From NCBI RefSeq assembly GCF_001011035.1, contig NZ_CP011492.1:1495501-1559500 (forward strand): a stretch of 64,000 nt of DNA, given 5' to 3'. The notes under the pieces are model-generated. The model made no database searches. It was not told the origin of the DNA and worked only from the letters and a program-made list of their open reading frames with translations. Every line of letters starts with the position of its first letter. The first letter of the stretch is position 1. This DNA comes from Streptomyces sp. CNQ-509 (GTDB lineage Bacteria > Actinomycetota > Actinomycetes > Streptomycetales > Streptomycetaceae). The position numbers were made by a program, and so were the translations under genes. Shown here one piece after another: positions 37,327-41,067 of this stretch.

Positions 37327-37737
37327 ATGAGCGAGGAGTTCCGGGGCTTCAACGCCTTCGGTCCCGACGGCGAGCCGGCCGCCAGCCGCTGGAGCGACGT
37401 GCTGAACATCTTCGCGGCGCCCGAGGCGGAGGACGCGGCGTCCCGCTGGGAGCGGGCCGGTGCGCTCTTCGACTCGAAGGACTACGTGGGGGCGGCGAAG
37501 CTGCTGACCGCGGTGGTCGAGGAGTACCCCGACCAGGTCGCGCCCCGGCTGCTGCTGGCCCGGGCGTACTACCACTCCGCGCAGTTGACCCGCGCCGAGA
37601 CGGAGCTGCGCGCGGTCCTCGACCGCGACCCGGTCGAGCACTACGCCCACCTGATGCTGGGCCGCACGCTCCAGCGCCAGGGCCGCGAGGACGAGGCGGC
37701 GGGCGCGCTGCGCACGGCGGAGGCGCTGGGCGCCTAG
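37327..37737 (+). CDS. Tetratricopeptide-repeat protein
   Basis: The 136-aa protein holds three helix-turn-helix TPR units: ASRWERAGALFDSKDYVGAA, DQVAPRLLLARAYYHSAQLT and VEHYAHLMLGRTLQRQGRED. The N-terminal 30 residues are unique. It probably acts as a protein-interaction partner of the oxygenase/reductase pair. Its TAG stop is part of the CTAG that forms the left boundary of the downstream repeat element. Confidence 0.85.
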   Translation: MSEEFRGFNAFGPDGEPAASRWSDVLNIFAAPEAEDAASRWERAGALFDSKDYVGAAKLLTAVVEEYPDQVAPRLLLARAYYHSAQLTRAETELRAVLDRDPVEHYAHLMLGRTLQRQGREDEAAGALRTAEALGA

Positions 37738-37978
37738 TCCCTGTCTGACACACAGCGCCGTCCGCCCTCTGGGCGGGCTCCCCCACAGCGCGCAAGCGCG
37801 CGTGGGCGGTACCCCCAGGCGTCTGGTGCGTGCGATCGCAAGGCGGAGGGCCGACCGCATAGTGGGCCTCTTCGGCCGATCCGACAACGCAGCGAGCGTG
37901 CGTGCCAGGCTCCCCCACAGCGCGCTGCGCGCACGTGGGCGGTACCCCCAGACGCAGGCGGGATCTGCCAGACAGGGC
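37738..37978. mobile_element. CTAG-bounded 241-bp MITE-like element, copy 1
   Basis: A non-coding 241-bp element is flanked by CTAG on both sides (37734-37737 and 37979-37982). Its ends are inverted: CCCTGTCTG on the left and CAGACAGGG on the right. The segment at about 37822-37962 is nearly identical to the reverse complement of 39606-39749. Internal hairpins (CCCCCACAGCGCGC with its complement) could terminate transcription. No transposase is encoded, so it would need help in trans; CTAG as target suggests an IS5-like relative. From memory, related dispersed elements are common in Streptomyces. Bases 37983-38063 hold the araC promoter. Confidence 0.75.
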
Positions 37979-38063
37979 CTAGCGGCGCCGGACGGCGGGC
38001 CGGGCTGCGTCAGGGCCCGGGCCGCCGTTCCCTCGCCCGCGGTCAGGCGGCCATACTGGGCCC

Positions 38064-38906
38064 GTGGAATACGTCGGCATCGTGCCCGCTCCGCCGCTCG
38101 ACCGCTTCATCGACGACATCTACTGCCTCACCGGAGTGCCGCGGCACCGGCTGATGAACGTTCCCCCGATGCCGTCGGCGCACTTGTTCCTGCACCACGG
38201 CGGACCGGTCCGCCTGTGGGACTCGGACCGTTCCGTGCCGCCGGCGCTGATGACGGACGGGTGGTTCATGGGCGTATGGACCAGGCGCTTCCTCTTCGCG
38301 TACCCCCCGCGTGTGCGGCTCGTCGGGGTGCACTTCAAACCCTGGGGCATGTCGCCGTTCGCCGGCCTGCCGGCGGCCGAACTGCGCAACCGGTGGGCAC
38401 CACTCGACGCCGTCTGGCAACGCTCCGCGGACCGGATACGCAACCGGATCGGCGACGCCGCGTCGGCCGCCGAGGCGCTGCGGGTGGTGGAGGAGGAGCT
38501 GCGTTCGCATCTCGCCGTGGCCCCCGCGCGCGGTCTCGACCTGGTCCGGCACACGGGCGGGTGGCTGGAGACCTCGCACGGCACGGTCGCGGTCCGTGCG
38601 CTGGCCGATGCCGCCGGGGTGAGCGGCAATCATCTGGCCGGCCTCTTCAAGGATCACGTGGGTGTCACCCCGAAGCGGATGGCGCGGATCTACCGCTTTG
38701 CGCGGCTGATCGTGTCGGTGGACGCCCTGCGCCCGGTCGACTGGTCCGGTCTCGCCCAGACGGCGGGCTATTTCGACCACGCCCACTTCAGCAGGGAGTT
38801 CAAGGACTTCACCGGCCACACTCCCACGGAGTACCTGGCGCTGCGGCGCCGGTTCCCCGCCGAGCGGCGGGATCCGCAGGATCTCGGCCCGATGCCGGCC
38901 GATTGA
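38064..38906 (+). CDS. AraC-family regulator with DUF6597-type N-terminal domain
   Basis: This 280-aa protein has an N-terminal cupin-like sensor (PPLDRFIDDIYCLTG, VGVHFKPWGMSPFAGLPAAE), a linker and a C-terminal double HTH: ALADAAGVSGNHLAGLFKDH and DWSGLAQTAGYFDHAHFSRE, with FTGHTPTEYLALRR. The GTG start directly follows a good promoter-free 80 bp after the repeat element. It is transcribed with the RibD-like gene and both are bracketed by the inverted elements, so it may regulate that gene. Confidence 0.9.
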   Translation: MEYVGIVPAPPLDRFIDDIYCLTGVPRHRLMNVPPMPSAHLFLHHGGPVRLWDSDRSVPPALMTDGWFMGVWTRRFLFAYPPRVRLVGVHFKPWGMSPFAGLPAAELRNRWAPLDAVWQRSADRIRNRIGDAASAAEALRVVEEELRSHLAVAPARGLDLVRHTGGWLETSHGTVAVRALADAAGVSGNHLAGLFKDHVGVTPKRMARIYRFARLIVSVDALRPVDWSGLAQTAGYFDHAHFSREFKDFTGHTPTEYLALRRRFPAERRDPQDLGPMPAD

Positions 38907-38978
38907 TTTCTTACATGCCCGGGTCCCCACGGTGCGGGAAGATCGCGGAAACCCGCAAGGACACGTCGAGGAGAGCCC

Positions 38979-39590
38979 GTGGGCACGGTGATCATGCACA
39001 GTGTGGTGTCGGTGGACGGCTTCATCGCCGATGAGAACGGCGAGGTCGGTCCCCTGCACGACTGGTACTTCGGCGGGGACGTCCCCCTCGTCGTGGGCGA
39101 GGAGGGGGAGTTCGACCATTCCGGTGCCGGAACCGGCTTCAAGGTCTCCCGCGCGTCGGCAGACTATGTCCGGTCGATGTGGGAGTCGATCGGCACGATC
39201 GTGATGGGCCGCACCCTCTTCGACCAGGTGAACGGCTGGGAGGGCCGGCCGCCCGCGGGCGATCACATCGTCGTGGTCTCCCACCGGCCGAAGCCGCCGG
39301 GGTGGCATCCGGAGGCGTCCTGCCACTTCGCCGACAGCGTGCCGGGTGCGATCGGCAAGGCCCGGGAGCTCGCCGGGGAGCGGGTTGTCGCGGTGAACGC
39401 CGGCGAAGCGGGGGCCCAGGCGCTCGCGGCCGGTCTGGTGGACGAGGTGGCGATGGACGTGGTCCCGGTGGTGTTCGGATCGGGCAGACGCTACTTCGGC
39501 GGCATCCGCGGGCAGCACCTGCTGGAGGATCCGCACGTCGTCATCGAGGGCGAAGGAGTGCTGCACCTGAAGTTCAAGGTACGCCGCTAG
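38979..39590 (+). CDS. Dihydrofolate reductase family / RibD C-terminal domain protein
   Basis: The 203-aa protein has a DHFR-like NADPH fold: VIMHSVVSVDGFIADENGEV, IVMGRTLFDQVNGW, DHIVVVSHRPKP and LVDEVAMDVVPVVFGSGRRY. Members reduce varied substrates (riboflavin pathway pyrimidines or unknown). It starts at GTG with GGAGAG upstream, 72 bp after the araC stop. Its TAG stop is part of the CTAG bordering the second repeat element. Confidence 0.88.
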   Translation: MGTVIMHSVVSVDGFIADENGEVGPLHDWYFGGDVPLVVGEEGEFDHSGAGTGFKVSRASADYVRSMWESIGTIVMGRTLFDQVNGWEGRPPAGDHIVVVSHRPKPPGWHPEASCHFADSVPGAIGKARELAGERVVAVNAGEAGAQALAAGLVDEVAMDVVPVVFGSGRRYFGGIRGQHLLEDPHVVIEGEGVLHLKFKVRR

Positions 39591-39832
39591 GGTGTCTTCA
39601 CTCTCCCGTCTGCGGCTGGGGGTACCGCCCACGGGCGCGCAGCGCGCTGTGGGGGAGGAGCCTGGCACGCACGCTCGCCGCGTTGTCGGGATCGGCCGAA
39701 GAGGCCCCCTATGCGGTCGGCCCTCCGCCTTGCGACCGCACGCACCAGACTCCCCCTACGCCCCGGGGGCGTGGGCGGTGCCCCCTGCGCCGCCCTCCCT
39801 GCGGGCGAACGACGCGAGATTGAAGACAGATC
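39591..39832. mobile_element. CTAG-bounded 242-bp MITE-like element, copy 2 (inverted)
   Basis: This is the inverted partner of copy 1, flanked by CTAG at 39587-39590 and 39833-39836. Its terminal inverted repeat is GTCTTCA (left) and TGAAGAC (right). Bases 39606-39749 match copy 1 in reverse complement with few differences; the outer third has the same hairpin layout but has diverged. Bases 39837-39894 show nothing further. Confidence 0.75.
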
Positions 39833-39894
39833 CTAGGGTCTCGCCGCCCGGTTCCTCCGCCGGTAGGACGCCGGCGGCGGAACTCCGCGCAGCG

Positions 39895-41067
39895 CTACCG
39901 GAGGCGTTCCACGATCGTCGCGTTCGCCAGGCCGCCCGCCTCGCACATCACCTGCAGCCCGTAGCGGCCGTCCACCGCGTCCAGCGCGCCGAGCAGCGTG
40001 CCCAGCAGCCGCGTGCCCGACGCGCCCAGCGCGTGGCCCAGGGCGATCGCGCCGCCGTGGACGTTGACCCGCTCCGGGTCCGCTCCCACGTCGCGCTGCC
40101 ATGCCAGCGGCACGGGCGCGAATGCCTCGTTCACCTCGAAGGCGTCGATGTCGCCGATCGTCAGGCCCGCCTTGGCCAGCACCTTCCGCGTCGCCGGTAC
40201 GACGCCCATCAGCATCAGCACCGGGTCGTCGCCGGTCACGGCGAAGGAGTGGAACCGCGCCCGCGGCGTGAGGCCCAGCTCCGCCGCCCGCTCCTCGCTC
40301 GTGATCAGCACGGCGGAGGCGCCGTCCGTGAGCGGCGAGGAGTTGCCGGGCGTGATGTGCCAGCCGATCTCGGGGAAGCGCTCGGCGACGGCCGGGTCGT
40401 AGAAGGACGGCTTGAGCGCGGCGAGCCCGTCCAGGGACGTCGACGGCCGTACGGTCTCGTCCTTGCGGTGCTCCCCCACGGGCACGACGTCCGCGTCGAA
40501 GACGCCCCGCTCCCAGGCCCGTACCGCCAGCCGGTGCGAGCGCTCGGAGAACGCGTCCAGCTCCGTACGCCCCAGCCCCCAGCGCGCCGCGATCAGCTCC
40601 GCGGAGTGGCCCTGGGCGATCAGCCCGCCCGGGTAGCGGGCGGCGAGCCGGTCGCCGAACGGGTCGCGGCCCACGGCGGCGGTGCCCATCGGCACCCGGC
40701 TCATCGACTCGACACCGGCGGCCACGGCGATGTCGTACGCCCCGGCCATCACCCCCTGCGCCGCGAAGTGCGCGGCCTGCTGCGAGGAGCCGCACTGCCG
40801 GTCGACGGTGGTGCCGGGCACGGACTCGGGGAAGCCGGCGGCGAGCACGGCGTTGCGGGCGATGTTGAACGACTGGTCGGCGGCCTGCGTGACGCAGCCG
40901 GCGATCACGTCGTCGAGCCGCGCGGGGTCGAGCCCGTTGCGGTCGACGAGCGCGCGCAGCACCTCGGCCAGCAGGTCGACGGAGTGGACGCCGGACAGGG
41001 CGCCGCCCGGCTTGCCCTTGCCGGAGGCCGTGCGGACGGCGTCGACGACGACTGCGGTGGTGGTCAT
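39895..41067 (-). CDS. Acetyl-CoA acetyltransferase (thiolase)
   Basis: This 390-aa thiolase has a nucleophile Cys in VDRQCGSSQQAAHFAAQGVM, an active-site His in NVHGGAIALGHALGASGTR and a second Cys in LQVMCEAGGLANATI. These are the degradative/biosynthetic thiolase motifs. The start is ATG 41067; the open frame upstream belongs to other genes. It is divergent from a TetR gene, with a clear palindrome between the two, so it is probably repressed by it. The substrate chain length cannot be told. Confidence 0.93.
   Translation of the reverse strand: MTTTAVVVDAVRTASGKGKPGGALSGVHSVDLLAEVLRALVDRNGLDPARLDDVIAGCVTQAADQSFNIARNAVLAAGFPESVPGTTVDRQCGSSQQAAHFAAQGVMAGAYDIAVAAGVESMSRVPMGTAAVGRDPFGDRLAARYPGGLIAQGHSAELIAARWGLGRTELDAFSERSHRLAVRAWERGVFDADVVPVGEHRKDETVRPSTSLDGLAALKPSFYDPAVAERFPEIGWHITPGNSSPLTDGASAVLITSEERAAELGLTPRARFHSFAVTGDDPVLMLMGVVPATRKVLAKAGLTIGDIDAFEVNEAFAPVPLAWQRDVGADPERVNVHGGAIALGHALGASGTRLLGTLLGALDAVDGRYGLQVMCEAGGLANATIVERLR

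Follow-up and report, generated by a model that had tools for sequence, protein, structure and literature searches.

A covarying predicted hairpin core carried by gene-less, CTAG-bordered elements of differing ends in Streptomyces and other actinomycetes

We analyzed a 64-kb stretch (bases 1,495,501-1,559,500; "the window") of the genome of Streptomyces sp. CNQ-509, a single contig of 8.04 Mb, in which two short elements, A and B, lie on either side of a gene pair encoding an AraC-type regulator and a RibD_C reductase. The elements differ in their ends and share, in opposite orientation, a core of ~96 nt that recurs in other actinomycete genomes with paired changes pointing to a conserved hairpin. 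The original prediction for this locus had described the elements and their CTAG borders and had proposed that they form a composite-like unit around the gene pair. Our comparisons agreed with the former and turned attention from the gene pair to the core.

Two elements around a gene pair

The features of the locus are listed below, with gene calls, here and throughout, made by a simple in-house script. R1 is a covariance model built from 45 copies of the core, L and G numbers denote loci and genomes, MITE stands for miniature inverted-repeat transposable element, and "own genome" in copy counts means the CNQ-509 genome that holds the window.

37327-37737, plus strand: TPR-repeat protein gene, left of A; TAG stop at 37735-37737
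37734-37737: CTAG, left border of A, including the TAG stop of the TPR gene
37738-37978, plus strand: element A, type A, MITE-like, 241 bp; ends CCCTGTCTGACA.. and ..CAGACAGGG
37776-37817, plus strand: GC-rich hairpin module of ~40 nt, left of the core in A; like modules stand alone in L142-L144
37817-37912, plus strand: conserved core with predicted structure, copy A; 85.6 bits to R1
37908-37950, plus strand: second hairpin module of ~40 nt, right of the core in A
37979-37982: CTAG, right border of A
38064-38906, plus strand: AraC-type regulator gene (HTH_18, DUF6597; domain search), paired with a RibD_C gene in other actinobacteria
38979-39590, plus strand: RibD_C (DHFR-like) reductase gene (domain search); TAG stop at 39588-39590
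39587-39590: CTAG, left border of B, including the TAG stop of the RibD_C gene
39591-39832, minus strand: element B, type B, MITE-like, 242 bp; ends of GGTCTGTCTTCA type; sense of the core on the minus strand
39658-39754, minus strand: conserved core with predicted structure, copy B; 91.1 bits to R1
39833-39836: CTAG, right border of B
39895-41067, minus strand: thiolase gene, convergent to B

Both elements begin directly behind a TAG stop, A behind that of the TPR gene on its left and B behind that of the RibD_C gene. The termini of A form an imperfect 26-nt inverted repeat (77%), and those of B are GGTGTCTTCACTCTC and, reverse-complemented, GATCTGTCTTCAATCTC. The two end types are unlike (CCCTGTCTGACA in A, GGTCTGTCTTCA in B); bases 81-226 of A (~146 bp) match B in inverted orientation at 93%, and the cores are identical at 91 of 97 aligned columns. 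The gene caller predicted no gene within A or B, and the reading frames of at least 80 amino acids that touch them extend far beyond them. In these respects, from the CTAG borders and the terminal inverted repeats (TIRs) to the inverted shared stretch and the start at a stop codon, the original prediction was borne out. In A, the core is flanked by the GC-rich hairpin module of ~40 nt (TCCCCCACAGCGCGC..GCGCGTGGGCGGTACCCCCA), which in modified form also flanks that of B; similar modules are found on their own in L142, L143, and L144 and may represent a separate repeat resembling the repetitive extragenic palindromic (REP) sequences.

The own genome contained at least 40 matches to A and at least 51 to B, many of them to partial copies, and as only 40 first-look candidates were scored these numbers are lower bounds. 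Near-complete copies numbered 8 for type A and 14 for type B, those of the window included, and the best other copy was 98% identical to A and 97% identical to B. A CTAG lay at the border or a few bases from it at 31 of the 44 ends of these 22 copies, with both ends so marked in 11. The elements thus agree with the predicted non-autonomous, CTAG-targeting repeats and with MITEs in their length (50-500 bp) without a transposase gene, TIRs, target-site duplication, and dispersed copies, and both are absent from the corresponding locus in a relative, if not base-exactly. An autonomous partner with A or B ends was not found in the same genome, and neither element contains the DUF4096/DDE transposase of an IS5 element. 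For lack of such a partner we call A and B MITE-like, the partner being lost, diverged, or elsewhere.

Streptomyces aculeolatus (L002) and S. phytophilus (L001) are the closest named relatives identified at this locus, with flanks at 94% nucleotide identity. In S. aculeolatus, the AraC/RibD_C pair is likewise enclosed by the TPR and thiolase genes, with gene order and orientation unchanged; neither A nor B is present there (94% flank identity), and one CTAG lies at the position of B. The original prediction had called for empty sites with a single CTAG, and this locus answers that in part: the right-hand intergenic sequence has diverged, so that we observe the absence of the elements rather than a base-exact empty site. 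In S. phytophilus, a diverged element-like stretch of ~160 bp (L001, about 1715-1870) occupies the same RibD_C stop where B sits, implying either repeated insertion at this site or divergence of an old copy. Among 58 loci collected via the AraC protein, a single alignment covered AraC and RibD_C in 37, and none of the 58 contained a match to A or B (BLAST, E 1e-3). The AraC/RibD_C cassette is an ordinary gene pair.

The tetranucleotide CTAG occurs 10 times in the window in comparison with 157.6 expected from base composition, a depletion of about 16-fold. All 10 sites are intergenic; four are the borders of A and B, and three overlap a TAG stop. Given this rarity and intergenic location, insertion at TAG stops is to be expected. 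For placement relative to genes we considered 99 of 102 cores, leaving out a false hit in L001, L145 (element B itself), and one fragment in L225, and counted the 90 copies with neighbor calls on both sides (9 of the 99 had none on one or both). Convergent gaps held 34 copies, tandem gaps 26 and 23 (core sense and antisense), and divergent gaps 7; the 63 gaps of the window comprise 11 convergent, 40 tandem, and 12 divergent ones. The surplus of copies at gene ends agrees with the location of CTAG at TAG stops. We rejected a role in the 3' ends of neighboring genes, as the placement bias fits the CTAG target and the orientation in tandem gaps is even.

Fold, covariation, and spread of the core

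The predicted fold of the core is one long hairpin. At its base would lie a lower stem, P1, which in Streptomyces includes two tandem U.G/G.U wobble steps and is followed by a mismatch and 4 bp; an AAG loop opposite one base comes next, and then 3 bp of GCG/CGC. The top consists of a tandem G.A (or Watson–Crick) step, whose CAA bulge hardly ever changes, and of a freely varying hairpin, P2. AAG is found in 90 and CAA in 91 of 92 distinct cores.

We studied covariation using two alignments. The first, A1, comprises 45 of the 62 class-I cores without gaps (14 own-genome copies, L190, L236, and L237 were left out), and its 38-pair structure keeps 95.3% of cells paired, falling to 26-51% once one side is slid against the other. 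Both sides of a pair had changed in 80 cells, compared with 27.7 in shuffled data (0 of 500 shuffles as high). The second, A2, stems from 91 hand-chosen loci giving 101 rows, of which 8 antisense ones were dropped to leave 93, and 92 of these are distinct. For the 92 distinct cores, cells with both-sided changes numbered 150 in P1 and 300 in P2, against 29.9 and 109.5 in shuffles (0 of 300 as high in either case). The core thus shows the covariation for one secondary structure that is looked for in a structured RNA, as judged by shuffle tests on related copies. Folding of RNA gave lower z scores for the sense than for the antisense strand (L159, -7.75 vs. -4.56; L254, -8.84 vs. -4.63).

The step at positions 30/31:68/69 is GA/GA in 85 of the 92 cores, CC/GG in four, and CT/GG, GC/GC, and GA/GG in one each; the positions beside the CAA bulge are exchangeable with normal pairs. 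We had considered a standard kink turn for the GA/CAA step and dropped it because the exchanges favor pairing of 30 with 69 and of 31 with 68, which puts the bulge on the opposite side.

Element B found a match in 221 of the 295 genomes of the genus (two candidates scored per genome), and among the matches listed all except those in G000 and G063 span only positions 66-211 of the 250-base query. Model R1 detected the core in 33 of 40 sampled genomes of the genus, with up to 51 copies per genome, and under stricter filters in 46 of 296 sampled genomes of the class, 24 from the genus itself and 22 from a further 12 genera; the core is thereby placed in 13 of the 114 genera sampled. We inspected DNA of all 22 genomes outside the genus: 20 of them have at least one locus with exact copies of the loop motifs GCAAGGCG and CAACGC, and in G348 and G442 the motifs deviate by one or two bases. 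G326 (family f20) has 37 R1 matches (L275-L304), and in its loci L275 and L286 the lower stem is wholly different and fully Watson–Crick yet pairs around the same loops. Several unrelated lower-stem sequences surround the same loops in this genome, making it a good place for studying the core outside Streptomyces. In three loci of G165 (L200, L219, and L221), the core part CGACAACGCGG is duplicated in tandem. The core also occurs in 40 plasmid records, all from Streptomyces. Carriage by phages was set aside after finding no match among 50,697 phage records and no exact pattern match in viral contigs, and we attributed to chance three weak R1 matches without the loops (36.5 and 31.6 bits in a plain palindrome in L028; 25.8 bits in L020, just behind the RibD_C gene).

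Known families did not account for the core. Rfam 15 yielded nothing above the gathering score for the window stretch and eight further loci, and the best score on a core was 31.5 bits for mir-1397, which has a gathering score of 70. We found no description of the core in the literature searched, which lies mostly outside subscription journals, nor in the available passages of PMC2267715, PMC1590033, PMC10969869, PMC2864571, and PMC2229807; the main text of a 2024 review of prokaryotic MITEs contains neither "Streptomyces" nor "actino-". Within the reach of these comparisons, we regard the core as a new module, predicted to be structured and unrecorded in Rfam.

The shells around the core are diverse. 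Among 124 elements from 61 genomes, 80 could be assigned on both sides to 15 end types drawn by eye, some of which are close variants of each other; of the others, 18 fit an end type at one of their two ends and 26 at none. Matches plainly not representing elements were removed afterward from the listing, and an automatic clustering of the ends was discarded as it chained unlike ends and accepted chance pairs. In the own genome, shells of type A, type B, and GATGAATGA type carry near-identical P2 sequences, and the P2 of the CCCGTAA type is similar. As a gauge of possible shell swapping within genomes, overall P2 similarity is 0.889 for the same genome and different shells (47 pairs) and 0.769 for different genomes and the same shell (419 pairs), but without the own genome the values are 0.751 (10 pairs) and 0.770 (385 pairs).

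Strand preference and possible carriers

The pairing cells are asymmetric between the strands. Over all positions, 2,651 cells are Watson–Crick, 510 G.U, 42 A.C, and 227 other mismatches; all 62 class-I cores together have 363 G.U and 36 A.C cells, and at the four wobble positions of P1, G.U fills 308 of 363 cells and A.C none. The excess of G.U points to the sense strand, as the opposite strand would make A.C of the same pairs. Scores to R1 are similarly separated, ranging from 48.6 to 112.8 bits in sense and reaching at most 39.5 bits in antisense. Tandem U.G/G.U steps are stable in RNA. Their retention in Streptomyces suggests, together with this stability, that the core acts as RNA.

The elements that carry the core have ties to the IS5 family. 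A and B resemble the insertion sequences (ISs) and MITEs of that family (DUF4096) in the CTAG borders, in TIRs of the GGG(N)CTGTC type, and in being gene-less. The own genome contains two IS copies of 1,024 bp (L061 and L062) with inverted CTAGGGCGTGTTTCGAA ends and DUF4096 transposase genes, and L061, the copy tested, also holds a DDE_Tnp_1 domain. The CTAGGGCGTGTTTCGAA end type bounds many core-bearing elements in other genomes, although by eye the ends of L061 agree with the elements of that type in the terminal stretch only. The search for an IS5-family transposase advised in the original prediction thus succeeded for IS5-type ends and for an IS with CTAGGGCGTGTTTCGAA ends, but not for the ends of A and B themselves. 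In L061, the stop codon of the transposase gene (2380-2382) is the TAG of the right-hand CTAG border. Different from IS5-family MITEs, the core is common to shells with many end types and so does not resemble what a single IS would leave behind after a deletion.

Among repeats described elsewhere, the nearest in behavior are, in the passages available, the Correia and CIR repeats. Correia elements are known from one genus and defined by their TIRs; in the elements studied here the TIRs vary and the inner core is conserved across families. The Correia (NEMIS) repeats of Neisseria are described in the passages available as small and gene-less, with a long-hairpin transcript cut by RNase III (PMC10969869, PMC2229807). 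CIR repeats of Caulobacter and Brucella have, according to the same kind of excerpt, a conserved shape at the RNA level with two arms and an exposed motif, GANTC, at the loop (PMC2229807). On that partial account, the core resembles CIR in combining a phylogenetically conserved, here predicted, shape with an exposed motif and differs in having one long hairpin with CAA and AAG loops and a free apical stem.

Interpretation of the core

A and B are gene-less and likely parasitic mini-transposons of two MITE-like families. Our preferred reading, to which we assign a probability of roughly 0.6, is that these CTAG elements of two end types likely depend for their movement on IS5-type transposases acting in trans and that their core works as a strand-specific hairpin, probably RNA, bound by a common factor. 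We infer the movement in trans, as no pair of A or B ends was found at IS distance in the own genome. A factor common to actinomycetes would bind the CAA/AAG face of the core, and the function would serve the element rather than the neighboring genes, as the free orientation relative to genes suggests.

Several observations weigh against this reading. The strand asymmetry is weaker in P2 alone (70 G.U and 27 A.C cells), and in some distant genera P1 is Watson–Crick without wobble steps (e.g., L275 and L286), so that the argument from G.U rests mainly on Streptomyces and near copies. Folding as DNA also prefers the sense strand (-34.1 vs. -26.0 and -36.8 vs. -28.9). The covariation has its own limits: A1 shows no excess of further pair types (32 vs. 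32.3 in shuffles; 347 of 500), A2 was fitted to the model, the copies are related so that their cells cannot be counted as separate events, and there is next to no variation in the inner helix of 3 bp. The core of the window's A folds weakly (z of -1.96), with its upper hairpin partly decayed. Tandem copies have no strand preference (26 sense and 23 antisense; n = 49, p = 0.78). On the side of the carriers, no pair of A or B ends at IS length was found in the own genome with up to three mismatches, nor exact CTAGGGCGTGTTTCGAA ends at IS length in G082, G132, G186, G225, and G240, some of which are drafts. Finally, eight own loci have type A ends, complete or partial, and a single hairpin module but no core. 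Such copies mean that the core is unneeded for the persistence of a copy and perhaps also for movement; they may have arisen through recombination between the two direct hairpin repeats around the core.

The alternative that fares best is that the core acts as single-stranded DNA, its hairpin being exposed on one strand in replication or transfer and recognized by a recombinase or Y1-type transposase, with the TIR shells as a second layer. The attC sites of integrons and REP hairpins are imperfect, strand-specific hairpins in which the extrahelical bases are fixed and the terminal stem varies. The core is like them in these three general features, with its fixed bulges and free apical stem, and the DNA folding preference keeps the idea alive; the many end types of the shells and the Watson–Crick P1 of some distant genera would fit as well. 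The attC boxes, however, are practically missing (GTTRRRY in 1, RYYYAAC in 0, and both in 0 of 93 cores), and, unlike attC and REP sequences, the core sits in TIR shells that are often CTAG-bordered. G.T pairs are weak in DNA, and the wobble cells of P1 have nevertheless been kept as G.U. We regard this alternative as unlikely, if still a serious one.

Less credit is due to the view that A and B are plain MITEs and that the core is internal sequence simply passed on, through transposition and horizontal transfer, with a hairpin reflecting nothing but the palindromic nature of MITEs. Within-genome copies are indeed often near identical, core-less copies occur, and an orientation bias is absent. 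Yet conservation is among the highest at the loop bases, whereas the two partners of a pair change together, and the loops are exact (20) or near (2) in all 22 genomes outside the genus, even though P1 can differ completely and still pair. Symmetric upkeep of a palindrome would not be expected to favor G.U over A.C either, and we consider this explanation improbable.

That the core encodes a short conserved peptide is very improbable. The third sense frame is open in 86 of 93 cores and the length is 1 modulo 3 in 70, but the other 23 lengths fall outside that class (13 and 10), P2 changes its sequence freely while keeping the pairing, and open frames are common owing to the high G+C content. 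The proposal that A and B mobilize, invert, or insulate the AraC/RibD_C cassette as a composite carries hardly any weight, and its part on movement is contradicted: inverted A and B do flank the gene pair, but their end types differ, so that one transposase would not be expected to use both as the outer ends, and the cassette occurs without them in S. aculeolatus, in unchanged gene order and orientation, and in the 37 loci with the pair.

Beyond the preferred reading of a strand-specific hairpin in elements moved in trans, a broader possibility, which we hold tentatively and at somewhat less than even odds, is that the core is a portable actinomycete RNA domain that rides mini-transposons of many end types, switches carriers, and has one conserved cellular partner.

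It is usually the ends that define a MITE, whereas the interior is often regarded as decayed filler. Here the pattern is the reverse: variable ends enclose an interior that is conserved, with compensatory changes, across actinobacterial families and in up to 51 copies per genome. If our reading is true, a new family of structured RNA (or single-stranded DNA) would reside within repeats mostly left blank by annotation, and it would provide a direct way to ask what function, selfish or of the host, maintains a mobile core without coding capacity. Should the portable domain be real, one RNA hairpin would have been spread by whatever transposases a lineage holds.

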